Source: Halorarum salinum
Lineage (GTDB): Archaea; Halobacteriota; Halobacteria; Halobacteriales; Haloferacaceae
Assembly (NCBI RefSeq): GCF_013402875.1
Contig: NZ_CP058579.1
Span: 2,046,001 to 2,110,000, forward strand
DNA length: 64,000 bases
Reading direction: 5' to 3'
The notes under the pieces were generated by a model. That model saw only the letters and a program-made list of their open reading frames with translations. It had not been told where the DNA came from and did no database searches. Shown piece by piece: positions 20,587-32,655 of this stretch (its first letter is position 1; every line of letters starts with the position of its first letter). The position numbers and the translations under genes are program-made.

Positions 20587-20619
20587 TCATGCCTCACCCT
20601 TCTCTTTCTCTGCGAACAT
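20587..20619 (-). CDS. Ten-residue mini-ORF before the 20.6 kb gene
   Basis: ATG at 20619 overlaps the upstream TAA (TAATG). The product MFAEKEKGEA ends at a TGA inside GAAGGGTGAGGCATGA, the ribosome site of the next gene. It probably acts as a translational coupler rather than as a protein. Confidence 0.3.
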   Translation of the reverse strand: MFAEKEKGEA

Positions 20620-21017
20620 TAGGACCACGTCCGATGTTTCTCCGCGATGTGTTCTGCCCCATCGTACTCATCGATCTTCCACTCCACGCCCTCGGGGACT
20701 TCCACGATTTTCAGGTCAGCGAGATCTGCGTTCGCATCGTCCTCGAGCCGTTCCACAACCTCGATAACATCGGGGTCCGTCCGGAGGTCTTTATCCCACG
20801 AGTCCTTGGCAAGGTAGTACTTCGGATGGACCGACGGATACTTCCGGTATTGCTCGCTGTCGGTGTTGTCAACAACGTCGGCGTCTGGATCGGCATATTC
20901 GCCATCCTCCCAATGGGTCACTTCCCAGCCGTACTCCTCGATAAGGAGTTCGATCGCTGTCTCGCTGAGGCCGAAGCCACCGAAGCAGGTGTTGATGATG
21001 ATTTTCTGGACGATCAG
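20619..21017 (-). CDS. Conserved phage-type protein starting at CTG
   Basis: The frame from the CTG at 21017 gives 132 residues beginning KIIINTCFGGFGLSETA, a conserved N-terminus I recognise from phage and plasmid proteins. A GTG at 20921 would delete it. The CTG lies in a CTGA overlap with the upstream stop and seven bases after GAGG, exactly where ATGA overlaps sit at other junctions. The remainder is acidic (LLIEEYGWEVTHWEDGEYAD, VPEGVEWKIDEYDGAEHI). The function is unknown. Confidence 0.65.
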   Translation of the reverse strand: MIVQKIIINTCFGGFGLSETAIELLIEEYGWEVTHWEDGEYADPDADVVDNTDSEQYRKYPSVHPKYYLAKDSWDKDLRTDPDVIEVVERLEDDANADLADLKIVEVPEGVEWKIDEYDGAEHIAEKHRTWS

Positions 21018-21481
21018 TTATCACCCTCTCTGTTGATACAGATCTCATCCCACCCGATGCTCGCAGCCACGTAGTACGTGCCATCGATCACCACGATATC
21101 ACCGACCGACATACTGCGCTCCCCGCGCACGTAGTCCGGTTCGCCAGTCTCGGTCAAGGCGTCGTACCCGTGGTTCTGCACCGCGTGGGTGACGCCTTCT
21201 GCGATTCCTTCGATGTAGGTGTCGCAGCGTTCGCAGTACCGCAGTGAGAGGAATGCCTCGGATTCGCGGCGGCTGCCCCGGTTCCACTGCTCCCAGACCT
21301 GTTCGGGGTTGTCCACGCCATCGACCTGGATGACTTCGCAGTACAGTTGGTCGAACTCCTCGCGACTCAACCGGTCGGGAGTGTCCTCGATGTGGAGGTC
21401 GTGGAATAGCTGGGCGGCATCGCCCCGTTGTTCGCGGTCCCAGTTCAGGTAGTAGACGGTGGCCTCAGCGATCAGTACCAC
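21014..21481 (-). CDS. Zinc-knuckle protein of unknown function
   Basis: About 155 residues beginning IAEATVYYLNWDREQRGDAA, with a CERCDTY knuckle near residue 83 followed by AVQNHGY that could supply a histidine ligand. The listed start is the GTG at 21481, but it falls inside GAGGGTGG. The CTG at 21475, six bases after GAGG, would match the neighbouring CTG-started gene. The last codons form its CTGA overlap. No family was recognised. Confidence 0.55.
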   Translation of the reverse strand: MVLIAEATVYYLNWDREQRGDAAQLFHDLHIEDTPDRLSREEFDQLYCEVIQVDGVDNPEQVWEQWNRGSRRESEAFLSLRYCERCDTYIEGIAEGVTHAVQNHGYDALTETGEPDYVRGERSMSVGDIVVIDGTYYVAASIGWDEICINREGDN

Positions 21482-22699: not shown

Positions 22700-23197
22700 T
22701 CAGAAGCCATCCAACGACGCCTGCCGAGCGGGCATCTCCTCTGGCACATCCTGCTTCTGCAGCCACTGTCGCGTCCGCACCACGTTCTTCTCGCTACCGC
22801 TGCCTACCTCTCCGGCATCCACATCCTCGATGAACTTGTCCACATCATCGTAGCAGTGGTACCGCGCCCAGAACTCCACCCCGCGCTCATTGATCAACTG
22901 CAGCAGGAACAGGCACAGATCTTCGTCCCGAGCCATCTCGATCTGTTTGCGCCACCGCTTAACGGACATCACTGATGTCCCCGTGTTCTCCGGTAAGAGC
23001 CCGGCATCACACGCCGCCGTCACCAGCGGCCCAGACAGAGACGTGATGCGTCGGAGCGGGTCCAGTACGTCTTCTTTCCACGCACTGTACTCGTTAGTCC
23101 TGCGAGCGTCCGGTGCGCCCAGTTCTTCGGCCCGGGCACGGATGGAGTCCAGCTCTGCACGAATCTGGTCCGGGTCGAACGCTGCATCATCGGCCAT
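22700..23197 (-). CDS. Helical protein of unknown function
   Basis: ATG at 23197 (a GTG lies one codon earlier). The 165-residue product is helical: IRAELDSIRARAEELGAPDA, DPLRRITSLSGPLVTAACD, SVKRWRKQIEMARDEDLCLF. It resembles small regulatory or adaptor proteins, but no family was recognised. It is the last gene of the operon beginning at 25273. The next promoter starts just beyond its end. Confidence 0.55.
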   Translation of the reverse strand: MADDAAFDPDQIRAELDSIRARAEELGAPDARRTNEYSAWKEDVLDPLRRITSLSGPLVTAACDAGLLPENTGTSVMSVKRWRKQIEMARDEDLCLFLLQLINERGVEFWARYHCYDDVDKFIEDVDAGEVGSGSEKNVVRTRQWLQKQDVPEEMPARQASLDGF

Positions 23198-26576: not shown

Positions 26577-26863
26577 CGCGAACCACCCTTGGCCGCCTGA
26601 TTTGGAAGCTCCGTTGGAGGCCATAGATGATACGTGTAAATTAACACGGCCACTGTAACCCCTGCCAGAGCAAAGTGTGTCCAGAACCACTGATGCGCCG
26701 TCATACTCCACCCAATCAACGGCACCGGCCATCCCAACTGCGTTGCAGGCGACACCATCGTCACTACATCATAGGCTAATTCAATCCACGCAAGATTCAT
26801 CCCGAGAAACAAAATCAACAGGGAACGAATGCCGGCGATAGAGACGCCTCTAACCGCTACCAC
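26573..26863 (-). CDS. Two-helix membrane protein
   Basis: From the GTG at 26863 the product is 96 residues with helices LLILFLGMNLAWIELAY and HFALAGVTVAVLIYTYHLW. The start lies within GAGGGTGG at the end of the upstream gene. The longer frame to 26953 overlaps that gene more than any other junction. It ends QAAKGGSR over the next ribosome site. The function is unknown. Confidence 0.5.
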   Translation of the reverse strand: MVAVRGVSIAGIRSLLILFLGMNLAWIELAYDVVTMVSPATQLGWPVPLIGWSMTAHQWFWTHFALAGVTVAVLIYTYHLWPPTELPNQAAKGGSR

Positions 26864-27149
26864 CCTCGAAGAGCGCATCCACGTGTTCACCGATAGCCTT
26901 GAGCTCAGGACTGATCTCCTCCAACGCATATTCAAACCCGTTCGTCCCAGCATCGAACCCTTTCAAGAACATCCAGCGCCCAACCTCCGAAATCTTCCCA
27001 GCCATCTCCTCCTCGATAAACCGTTCCAACGCCTGCTCCCGGAACGCAAACAGGTGATGAATAAACAGCTTCGCCCGCTCCAGTTCTTCACCGTCCAGCA
27101 CATCCTCCAGGGCTGCAATGACCTCCTCGAGCTCCGCTGGCTCACTCAC
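26850..27149 (-). CDS. Helical protein, 99 residues
   Basis: GTG at 27149 in a GTGA overlap. The product is helical and acidic: LEEVIAALEDVLDGEELERA, FIHHLFAFREQALERFIEEE, GFEYALEEISPELKAIGEHV. No cysteines. It ends FEGGSG with the next ribosome site. Unknown function. Confidence 0.6.
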   Translation of the reverse strand: MSEPAELEEVIAALEDVLDGEELERAKLFIHHLFAFREQALERFIEEEMAGKISEVGRWMFLKGFDAGTNGFEYALEEISPELKAIGEHVDALFEGGSG

Positions 27150-27472
27150 CGCGTCCCACCCTTTGCCGCCGCCTGATCTGCCAAGTACACCGCGAAATCC
27201 TGCATCCGCTCGTGCTTCTCCTCGTTCGAATGCCCATCAAACGGCACATCCATCCGATCCAGCCACTCCGGCAACTCCTCACGCGGGACGTGCCACGCCA
27301 TCTGCCCAGCCGGAGTTCCAGCAAAGACAATCGGCCAATCCCCATCCTCGTCATCCTCGTCGATGCGGTACCCGACCGTATGCCCCCGATCCTTCAACAG
27401 GGCAAGAGTGAGGAAGACCGCCTGATTCCGCTCGTAGAACGCCTCGTCTACCGACTGCTCATCACCGATCAG
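27146..27472 (-). CDS. Conserved small protein starting at CTG
   Basis: The frame from the CTG at 27472 gives 108 residues: EQSVDEAFYERNQAVFLTLA and then RGHTVGYRIDEDDEDGDWPI, AGQMAWHVPREELPEWLDRM, NEEKHERMQDFAVYLADQ. This matches a haloarchaeal phage-type family in which the N-terminal Y-x-E-R-N helix is conserved. A TTG at 27397 would remove that helix. The CTG lies in a CTGA overlap six bases after GAGGGTG, the position of ATG at sister junctions. The function is unknown. Confidence 0.7.
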   Translation of the reverse strand: MIGDEQSVDEAFYERNQAVFLTLALLKDRGHTVGYRIDEDDEDGDWPIVFAGTPAGQMAWHVPREELPEWLDRMDVPFDGHSNEEKHERMQDFAVYLADQAAAKGGTR

Positions 27473-27732
27473 GCACCACCCTCAAGGATTTCTTCAAACA
27501 ACGTGAGCTCCCGACACCCGTCTTCTATCGTGTGGGAAAACGCCTCTCGACGGTAGCCCGTCTCATCACCGTACACATCTTGAATCACCATACCGACCTC
27601 GGCCCCAGCAACGGTCTCCGTCTCAATCACCACCTGCCACGAATCCGGAATAGGACCCGTCTGCTTGTGATCCCATACCCCAACGAAAACATTCTCCAGT
27701 TCCACGGCAGCAACCAACGCCTGGACAATCAT
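27469..27732 (-). CDS. Small protein of unknown function, 87 residues
   Basis: ATG at 27732 in an ATGA overlap. Strand-rich N-terminal half (VQALVAAVELENVFVGVWDH, DSWQVVIETETVAGAEVGMV) and a helical end finishing LEGGA with the ribosome site for the CTG-started gene. No recognised family. Confidence 0.6.
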   Translation of the reverse strand: MIVQALVAAVELENVFVGVWDHKQTGPIPDSWQVVIETETVAGAEVGMVIQDVYGDETGYRREAFSHTIEDGCRELTLFEEILEGGA

Positions 27733-28022: not shown

Positions 28023-28268
28023 TCAGGCATCACCCTCTGTGTTTCCGGCGTGCTGGAACCAACCCAGCTCCCGGTACACCTCATCCATCATACCCAGCAA
28101 CACCACCAGACCAACAAAACAGACGATGCCGCCCAGGACCACCAGTCCGTCACTGCCGCCACTGATCGCCGCCCAGAACAGGACACCACCACCGACCAGG
28201 ATCAGGACCGCCATCAAGATATGGGCCGTCCACCGCTGATGCATCAATTGACGGCGGTTAATCAGCAC
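28023..28268 (-). CDS. Two-helix membrane protein
   Basis: About 81 residues with helices HILMAVLILVGGGVLFWAA and LVVLGGIVCFVGLVVLLGMM, ending TEGDA. The start is uncertain: GTG 28268 lies inside the ribosome site, CTG 28265 has the spacing seen at the CTG-started genes, and ATG 28244 is a late alternative. The longer frame to 28352 overlaps the upstream gene too far. Confidence 0.5.
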   Translation of the reverse strand: MLINRRQLMHQRWTAHILMAVLILVGGGVLFWAAISGGSDGLVVLGGIVCFVGLVVLLGMMDEVYRELGWFQHAGNTEGDA

Positions 28269-28563
28269 CACCCTCTTTCCGAACGATGTCTTCGCCGAAC
28301 CAGGTACGACCCTGATAGAGGTTCCAGAATCCGTTTCCAAATGCAGTTCCAAATAGGAGAAGATACGCTCCTGCCGCGGTCGCCCCGGGAACTATCATTG
28401 TGCTTTTCGGGATTGCTGGATGAAGTTGGGCTATCCCGGTTAGTGCCATTGCGAACGCGCTCGCCGCCAACAACCATACGGAAAATATGATAATTCGTTC
28501 GACAGGGTTTCCTTCTTTAAATTCTCGGTAGGTTGCTTCATTTGGCCTATAGCGTATCGTCAT
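28258..28563 (-). CDS. Two-helix membrane protein
   Basis: ATG at 28563 (a GTG lies one codon earlier); 101 residues. Helices IIIFSVWLLAASAFAMAL and IVPGATAAGAYLLLFGTAF with a short soluble N-terminus (YRPNEATYREFKEGNP). It ends RKEGGAD with the next ribosome site. Third of three consecutive small membrane proteins in the operon. Confidence 0.55.
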   Translation of the reverse strand: MTIRYRPNEATYREFKEGNPVERIIIFSVWLLAASAFAMALTGIAQLHPAIPKSTMIVPGATAAGAYLLLFGTAFGNGFWNLYQGRTWFGEDIVRKEGGAD

Positions 28564-30218: not shown

Positions 30219-32276
30219 TCACACGTACTCGGCGACATCCACGAACACCACCTGATCCGGCACCCCATCGAACTCGTCCCGGACCGCCGCCTCGATCCGC
30301 TCCCGGACACCCTCTTCCAGGGTCGCGACCTCCACCCGGTCAACATCAAGACCGAGACACTTCCGCACATTCGCCACCTCGTGTTCCGGGCTCCGTGCGA
30401 CCTCAACTGCCACCACTTCACCCGTCGTTTCAGCGTACACATCCACGAACCCATCACTCACTGCTGACTCGATCTCCACCGAGAACCCGTCCGCCTCATA
30501 GTACTCCTTGATCTGCTGCTGCCAGTACCGATGCACCACCCCCCGACGACCTGTCGCCACCACATCATACCCGCGCTCGGCCAACACCTCCTTCCCGGCC
30601 TCTGTCAACTCCAGCAGCTTCGGATTCCGGCCGGGCTTCCGCGTATCAACCTCGACCTCCCGCACCAATTCCAGGGCCACCAGCTGGTTCTTCGCTTCGT
30701 TCCCGGTCTTCGCCCCGACGTCAACCGCGTCGTATCGCTGGCTCATCGACAGGAACGGCTGGTCATTCACCGAGGCCAGCACTGCCTCAGCCACGTCCCC
30801 AACCGCTCCACCGTCCTCGTCCGTCTCGGCATCGGTATCATCGGTAGCGTCCGTCGTTTCCCAGTGCCGACCAACCACCTCGAGGAACCGGTCCGGCCGA
30901 ACCCGCTCCCCATACGCCAGCTCGTCCAGCACCGACTGCATCCGCTCGCGTACCACTTCCTCCGTCGTGGACTTCTCCACGAAATACGGCGGTAACCGCA
31001 CCGGCACCGGGTCACAGCTCGCTGCCTTCACCACCGCCTCCCCTCGCTCCAAGGTCCGCGTGAACCCGACCTCATCATCCTCGATGCCGAACGTCTCCGC
31101 CATCTCCTGCGTGTCGTGGCCCGACCCCAACGACATCCATACCTTCAGGTTCGTATTCGCCTTCAGACTGTCCGATAACTTACTGGGTTCGTGGTCCGCC
31201 ACCACCAACGCTTCCCCGAACTCACGGACCCGCCCCATCAAACTCGTGATCGGTGGCTGCGGCGTATCCACGTTCTGCTCACGGTGCACGTCGAACACCT
31301 GCTTGGCCTCATCGAATAACACCGCGTGCCGCAACCCGTCCCGGTGGCCCTGTGCATCCCGGTAGTAGAACAGCCACGTCAACAACACCTCCACCATGAA
31401 CGTCTGGACGTCCTGATTCGGTTCCTGCAGCTCGACCACCACGTTCCGGTCTAACAACTCCTCGATGGGAAACCCGGTGCTACACTCAAAGATGTCACCA
31501 CCGAACCCGAGCATCCCGGTCAACCGGTTCTCCACGCGCTCCTTGTACCGGTACCGTGGACTCGCGTACGGGATCTCCTGGGCCGCCACTACATCCCGTA
31601 ACTCGAACAATGACGGGTACGCCCCATCCGCCATCTGCTCGTCATATAGGTTGTACAGGACACGGAGGTTCCCGAGGAAGTGGTTGCGGGACGCGTTCAA
31701 CAGACCGACCGCGTGACTCCACGTATCCGCCAAGACCTCTCCCCACTGCTCGATACGGACACCCGGCGGTGGCTGCAACGGGTTGAACTTGAGATCCTGC
31801 CAGTTGATCACCGTCAGGTCGAACTCATCGACGACATGCCGGTAATCGTTCTTGAAGTCGAACACGAGAAACGGGATGTCCACCCCGTCCAGCAGGCTCA
31901 TCATATTGTAGAAGAACGTGGTCTTCCCCGCCCCACTCCGACCGACCACCAGCATATGCTCGTTCAACTGCTGGCGCGTCACGCACACCGGCCGCTCATC
32001 CGGGTCCGCCCCCAGCATGAACTCACCGAGATACGCCGGGTACGGCGTGGCAAACGGCCGGCCGATCGGCTCTTCGTGCATCCGCTTGCGCCGATACAGC
32101 TCCCGGATATCCGCGAAGAACTCCCGGTCTACGGCTGCCACCCGGGACACGTTCGCGATCTTCTCATCCGGCTCACCAACCGCTTTCATATCGTCCTGCA
32201 ACGCCTCGAGCTCCTCCTGGTCCGTCAGGGACGAACGTTCCGCGGTTGACCTTCCCGAGTTTGAGTGTTCCGGCAT
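30219..32276 (-). CDS. HerA/VirB4-like ATPase with winged helix and nuclease-like tail
   Basis: This 685-residue protein has Walker A GRSGAGKT at residues 112-119, the coupling-type strand FLVFDFKNDYRHV, and Walker B HAVLFDEAKQVFD. These are typical of the HerA/FtsK/VirB4 motor family. A central acidic linker (DATDDTDAETDEDGG) leads to a winged-helix domain (KNQLVALELVREVEV, LLELTEAGKEVLAERGYDVV). The last 110 residues (GFSVEIESAVSDGFVDVYAE, VVAVEVARS) have the strand order of a PD-(D/E)xK fold. It probably moves or processes DNA during transfer, packaging or plasmid maintenance. It is the gene next to the tRNA attachment site. Confidence 0.75.
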   Translation of the reverse strand: MPEHSNSGRSTAERSSLTDQEELEALQDDMKAVGEPDEKIANVSRVAAVDREFFADIRELYRRKRMHEEPIGRPFATPYPAYLGEFMLGADPDERPVCVTRQQLNEHMLVVGRSGAGKTTFFYNMMSLLDGVDIPFLVFDFKNDYRHVVDEFDLTVINWQDLKFNPLQPPPGVRIEQWGEVLADTWSHAVGLLNASRNHFLGNLRVLYNLYDEQMADGAYPSLFELRDVVAAQEIPYASPRYRYKERVENRLTGMLGFGGDIFECSTGFPIEELLDRNVVVELQEPNQDVQTFMVEVLLTWLFYYRDAQGHRDGLRHAVLFDEAKQVFDVHREQNVDTPQPPITSLMGRVREFGEALVVADHEPSKLSDSLKANTNLKVWMSLGSGHDTQEMAETFGIEDDEVGFTRTLERGEAVVKAASCDPVPVRLPPYFVEKSTTEEVVRERMQSVLDELAYGERVRPDRFLEVVGRHWETTDATDDTDAETDEDGGAVGDVAEAVLASVNDQPFLSMSQRYDAVDVGAKTGNEAKNQLVALELVREVEVDTRKPGRNPKLLELTEAGKEVLAERGYDVVATGRRGVVHRYWQQQIKEYYEADGFSVEIESAVSDGFVDVYAETTGEVVAVEVARSPEHEVANVRKCLGLDVDRVEVATLEEGVRERIEAAVRDEFDGVPDQVVFVDVAEYV

Positions 32277-32581
32277 CTAATCAATTCGCCTCTACGGTGC
32301 GGAAACAGTAAAACCTTAGTATAATCAACGTCCCTATTCCTCCCCTTGCGGCCAGCAGTCGCTGACTGGCCGAAATAAACGGGTATTGACGCAGAATGGG
32401 CTTCCATCAGTGCGGCAATCCCCTAGGACTATGAGGACTGCCCGTGATTCAAATGCAGGCGAATCGCATGACATCGGAGACCCCCATCATGCGGCATGAT
32501 GAAATCACCCACCGGACCCGCGGGGTGTTTTATAAGCATCCCGCCGCAGTCCCGCGAATGCGGACCATCATGCAGAAGGAT
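32277..32581. other. Intergenic boundary region next to the tRNA
   Basis: Holds the presumed right attachment junction. A palindrome CATCATGC-n1-GCATGATG lies at 32485-32501, and CATCATGC recurs at 32566-32573. A second inverted repeat GGCCAG..CTGGCC lies at 32350-32371. The minus-strand TTATAAAA at about 32530 is a possible leftward promoter, with only a 22-codon frame (ATG 32497) after it. No gene is convincing here. Confidence 0.4.
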
Positions 32582-32655
32582 GGGCGCTGCAGGATTTGAA
32601 CCCACGGCAACTTGGTCCGAAGCCAAGCACTCTGTCCAGACTGAGCTAAGCGCCC
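32582..32655 (-). tRNA. tRNA-Arg (anticodon TCG)
   Basis: The minus strand folds as a complete cloverleaf. The acceptor stem pairs GGGCGCT with AGCGCCC, the anticodon arm is CTTGG-CTTCGGA-CCAAG with anticodon TCG, and the T-loop is TTCAAAT. No CCA is encoded and no intron is seen. Its 3' end faces the low-GC mobile tract, so it is the likely integration target. Confidence 0.95.

Follow-up and report, generated by a model that had tools for sequence, protein, structure and literature searches.

We predict that gene F, a small gene on the minus strand of a low-GC island in a haloarchaeal chromosome, is probably translated from an AUC codon (27469-27467), with the adjacent CUG (27472-27470) as the main rival start. 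It is well supported by sequence comparison that the start of F would lie upstream of TTG 27397, would be none of ATG, GTG and TTG (here termed canonical starts) and would be coupled to the stop of the preceding gene. Several features point this way. No canonical start precedes a conserved N-terminus, the ATC falls in the start column of the homologues and at the customary distance from an SD-like element, the same junction occurs in a second gene, and genes of a DUF932-like family carry AUU or AUC at their starts.

The window (the whole stretch of DNA analysed, 64,000 nt) corresponds to C1 2046001-2110000 of a 4.26-Mb haloarchaeal genome. Leftwards from window position 32.4 kb the GC content drops from about 70% to 50-60%, and a tRNA-Arg(TCG) gene (32581-32655, minus strand) marks where host DNA of 70% GC gives way to the island, of 50-60% GC, that contains the operon. 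The island (window 1-32400 plus C1 1946001-2046000) covers at least 130 kb of the 70% GC chromosome. No repeat of the tRNA-Arg(TCG) end was found within the window, and no extra tRNA able to read AUC was found in the island.

Gene F sits in a tightly packed minus-strand operon that has a DUF87/HerA-like ATPase (30219-32276) as a neighbour. Taken jointly with the proposed coupled AUC start, the operon is likely to be virus- or plasmid-like and F an intact small member of it. The upstream gene E (27469-27732, minus strand) starts with ATG and its terminal TGA overlaps F, and the downstream gene G (26850-27149, minus strand) starts with a GTG in a GTGA overlap with the end of F. Sister junctions in the operon are of mixed type: ATGA (at 27732), GTGA (at 27149 and at the gene after 26573), a GTG straight after the stop (28022) and TGATG (at 23197, 23670, 24040 and 24872).

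The stop-to-stop frame of F (27481-27146, minus strand) lacks ATG, GTG and TTG from the in-frame stop (TGA 27484-27482) down to TTG 27397; the preliminary description had reported no ATG or GTG between this TTG and CTG 27472, and codon reading bears this out. After the TGA the codons are GGG TGG TGC CTG (27472-27470) ATC (27469-27467) GGT GAT GAG CAG TCG GTA GAC GAG GCG TTC TAC GAG CGG AAT, and the frame continues to TTG 27397 and beyond. Read from ATC (27146-27469), F comprises 107 codons plus a stop and, by homologue alignment, would encode a WDGH/SH1-ORF11-like small protein. In the preferred ATC the A is also the last letter of the upstream TGA (TGATC), giving a same-strand overlap of 1 nt between E and F, and the first-proposed start, CTG, would form a CTGA overlap of 4 nt. 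The SD-like GAGGGTG (27477-27483, minus strand) lies inside the 3' end of gene E, and recurs in front of canonical starts of the operon, the one at 27732 included. In F it ends four bases before the CTG, not six as originally described, and seven before the ATC.

Homologues of F were identified in the haloviruses SH1 (ORF11), PH1 (ORF9), HCIV-1 (ORF8) and SNJ1 (gp17), in HJIV1, in haloarchaeal plasmids and genomes, in Streptomyces phages and in many viral contigs. The protein matches phrog_16023 (E=4.8e-11) and, more weakly, Pfam WDGH (PF25311; E=0.0026, 18.5 bits, under the gathering score of 27). Its VDEAFYERN aligns with the N-terminal [VI]xEVYxxRN helix of the SH1-ORF11/WDGH-type family, and the PxGQxxWH and DGH...K motifs are present as PAGQMAWH and DGHSNEEK. 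A helix ending in YxxR(N) is kept by nearly all alignable homologues and in F is located upstream of TTG 27397, so a start at this TTG would remove the conserved VDExYxxRN segment. The earlier argument that the upstream codons are needed for a Y-x-E-R-N helix thus holds, this helix being real and conserved among homologues. About 115 homologues could be compared (invariant Arg aligned, unbroken contig), and F is the only one without ATG, GTG or TTG between the stop and the helix. The SH1, PH1, HCIV-1, SNJ1 and WDGH proteins, with about 30-35% identity, start with ATG or GTG, unlike F; SH1 ORF11 and PH1 ORF9 nevertheless resemble it in overlapping the upstream stop, in their case by 4 nt. Neither DNA comparison with 60 genomes, plasmids or phages nor neighbouring proteins in viral contigs revealed close relatives of the F locus for a synonymous/non-synonymous test.

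The start in SH1, PH1, HCIV-1, L002, L051, L140, L151 and L157 lies 13 codons before the invariant Arg. The codon at this position in F is ATC, and CTG is at position 14. A check of whether the homologue ATG coincides with the CTG of F, as the preliminary description would have it, therefore misses by one codon and lands on the ATC; this match favours ATC but is suggestive only, as starts in the wider family span 6 to more than 20 codons before the Arg. Counting from the first G of GGTG, nine canonical junctions of the element have their start 11 or 12 nt downstream, and automated spacing counts for the island are highest at 11 and low at 8. Counted in this way, ATC of F is at 11 and CTG at 8. 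The GAGGGTGGTGC before the ATG of gene E is identical to the string in F, and this ATG is also at 11. The TGATC of F resembles TGATG, the overlap type seen four times in the element. Together, the SD spacing, the homologue start column and the likeness of TGATC to TGATG lead us to prefer ATC over CTG. Of the original proposal of a CTG start, the noncanonical, stop-coupled start above TTG 27397 is retained and the codon itself is replaced.

Initiation at CTG 27472, within a CTGA stop-start overlap and yielding a protein one residue longer, is unlikely, yet it is the alternative that survives best. CTGA mimics the ATGA and GTGA overlaps of the operon. The likeness to ATG at the sister junctions that was first claimed is correct for the CTGA overlap with the upstream TGA (27471-27469) but only in part for the sisters, given their mixture of ATGA, GTGA and TGATG. 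CTG is also present at the junctions of two other genes of the island (gene X and an integrase-like gene, below) and at the start column of one DUF932-like homologue (L236). It is the better known weak start of haloarchaea, with some support in H. volcanii (PMC12482152, PMC8305020), and AUG-to-CUG switches are more frequent than AUG-to-AUU switches (PMC5622118). The GGTGGTG string in F, which permits a second SD register, and the N-terminal length of the homologues, which differs by several residues, also count against the AUC reading. Weighing against CTG are its position one codon off the homologue start and its SD spacing of 8 versus 11-12, the large excess of AUU/AUC over CTG in the DUF932-like family, and the DUF932-like gene of the island itself, which has ATT without CTG.

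Gene X (minus strand, 20619-21014 from ATC or to 21017 from CTG) is, after F, the second gene in the element to lack a canonical start. It encodes a phage-type NTCFGGFGLS protein and reads TGA TAA CTG (21017-21015) ATC (21014-21012) GTC CAG AAA ATC ATC ATC AAC ACC TGC TTC GGT, with a TAA immediately before the CTG. Its first canonical codon comes 32 codons in, beyond the conserved NTCFGGFGLS. The CTGATCG junction, with its upstream TGA, is the same as in F, the ATC again being 11 nt and the CTG 8 nt after GGTG. Phage and haloarchaeal homologues of X start 5-8 codons before the conserved Asn (that of Halobaculum is longer), and the coding potential of X extends to the junction. The integrase-like gene (C1 2023976-2024971; 332 codons; Pfam PF00589, E=1e-11) has the start region TGA TAC CTG ATC GAC and its first canonical codon only at 102. 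No homologues of this gene were found in plasmids or 243 genomes.

These genes bear on the remaining explanations. That F is decaying, has lost its ATG and makes little or no protein, or a truncated one from TTG 27397, is improbable. F is alone among its homologues in lacking a canonical start, so a recent loss is conceivable, and the same island contains a broken, frameshifted gene (C1 ~1951000). Against decay, the open frame is intact with every conserved motif kept, the junctions are tight at both ends, the same junction recurs in X, and AUU/AUC starts are conserved in another family. An assembly or base-call error that hides a true ATG at 27469, or an indel joining the out-of-frame GTG/ATG at 27464-27461, is very unlikely: a one-base change or the nearby out-of-frame ATG would make F a normal gene, but X and other sites in the island show the same arrangement (a search for another copy of the F locus to compare found none). 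We reject production of F as a -1 frameshift fusion to gene E without initiation of its own, hardly credible even though F is in the -1 frame relative to E, as GGT GCC TGA offers no slippery run, an in-frame TAA directly precedes the CTG in X, and the homologues of F are separate genes with their own starts.

A codon-usage scan covered 803 genes, drawn from sampled genome stretches. X, F, the DUF932-like gene and the integrase-like gene rank among those in which it showed most clearly that coding signal begins ahead of any canonical start. In a blind scan of genes without a canonical start, the position 10 to 12 nt after GGTG held ATT or ATC in 6 of 31 instances and CTG in none, in a small sample and with a spacing window picked after the pattern was known. 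The six include these same four genes; five are in the island, and they are mostly among the strongest cases. When codons behind SD strings were simply counted, with no gene calls, the noise was too great to tell start codons apart.

The DUF932-like family provides an independent case. The island gene (C1 1998111-1999115) reads AGGTGATCCCCG followed by ATT CCA CGC GAC CTC TAT, with neither CTG nor a canonical start near its beginning. We compared 26 distinct haloarchaeal loci, from several families (L216, L217-L249). Six have ATG at or beside the start column, and 16 of the 26 have no ATG, GTG or TTG from the in-frame stop down to the conserved YTFDDLDELYETAE segment. In 11 of these 16 the stop precedes the column by four codons or fewer, and nearly all of the 16 carry ATT or ATC where their sisters have ATG; one other relative (L236) has CTG. 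In all 18 genes counted, a conserved GGTG (GGTGA) precedes the ATT or ATC by 11 or 12 nt. On a quick tree the AUG/non-AUG label changes at least three times, which implies that the codon type switches and the site stays put. By comparison, the family makes a good case that AUU and AUC serve as start codons in haloarchaea.

We propose the following mechanism for F. Ribosomes that end gene E at TGA (27471-27469) would re-initiate on the overlapping AUC (27469-27467), held or guided there by the GAGGGTG at the end of gene E. The end of archaeal 16S rRNA, AUCACCUCCU, pairs with GGAGG/GGUGAU (PMC7531240), and overlapping genes of Haloferax volcanii are translated by termination-reinitiation (PMC6728339). 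The initiator Met-tRNA would place Met at the AUC, giving a product that begins M-GDEQSVDEAFYERN, or GDEQSVDEAFYER if the Met is removed. From this arrangement we infer that E-F is an ordinary coupled junction of the UGAUG type with AUC as its start codon, part of a wider haloarchaeal use of AUU/AUC at 11-12 nt from a strong SD. The weak start codon may keep the output of F low, tune it, or leave it sensitive to initiation fidelity, as in infC and sigR (PMC5472188).

Starts other than AUG, GUG and UUG are known from infC of Escherichia coli (AUU), infC of Streptomyces (AUC) and sigR of Streptomyces (GUC) (PMC5472188). These genes share with F an unusual start codon, an SD, a conserved N-terminus and a misannotated start (PMC5472188). 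In the manner of the infC type, F has no canonical start before its N-terminus, AUC in the AUG column of its homologues and a normal SD spacing (11 nt); it does not look like a CUG-start gene, its CUG being one codon above the column with a spacing of 8. The infC and sigR genes differ in being bacterial and controlled by IF3, and neither F nor the DUF932-like gene is an initiation factor. Archaea are not known to have IF3; in them aIF1 acts as a fidelity factor. We tentatively suggest, at somewhat less than even confidence, that mobile-element and DUF932-like genes represent a regular class of haloarchaeal AUU/AUC starts, located 11-12 nt after a strong SD, probably controlled by aIF1 as infC is by IF3, and missed by gene callers that accept only ATG, GTG and TTG.

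The termination-reinitiation overlaps of Huber et al. 2019 are ATGA or TGATG (PMC6728339), and that of F is TGATC or CTGA. Earlier work proposed CTG as a start codon for haloarchaea (PMC8305020, PMC11431627), and mass spectrometry detected small proteins of H. volcanii that start with CTG (PMC12482152). Orthologues of HVO_1510 (leuA2; PMC8305020) and the H. volcanii small proteins (PMC12482152) resemble F in having a conserved or detected N-terminus without ATG, GTG or TTG; for them an in-frame CTG or an out-of-frame ATG was proposed, not AUU/AUC. In prokaryotes AUG is described as switching only very rarely to CUG or AUU, with AUC unmentioned (PMC5622118). The literature searched, whose incomplete coverage leaves novelty unproven, yielded no description of archaeal AUU/AUC starts. 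The use of AUU/AUC in haloarchaea is apparently wider and overlooked. If so, start-codon rules for archaeal genome annotation are incomplete, conserved genes are annotated too short or as pseudogenes, and the weak-start control of infC and sigR has a testable archaeal counterpart in haloarchaea. The DUF932-like family would be a ready reporter system, with natural AUG, AUU, AUC and CUG versions behind a near-identical SD.

Other candidate starts were identified in the element and genome. The frameshifted, broken gene at C1 ~1951000 mimics a CTG start and was rejected as a CTG-start gene because of this damage. Two operon genes (28023-28352 and 21014-21481, minus strand) have ATT or ATC 10 nt past GAGGGTG, with nearby in-frame GTGs inside the GAGGGTG. 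In the latter, directly upstream of X, an annotated-type GTG (21481) lies within the gene's own GAGGGTG and the ATC (21472) 10 nt after it, making a further AUC start possible and ambiguous. On the second replicon, a livM-like gene (C2 173652 onwards) has GGAGGTGGGGGGCC and then ATT AG, overlapping the upstream TAG; this ATT is a possible start but no more than a candidate, because a GTG at codon 44 could serve instead. At C1 ~2031500, a gene for a membrane-anchored protein runs for 112 codons without a canonical start codon, and its likely start is an ATC that follows GGTGAT by 12 nt and has a TATA-like box upstream.
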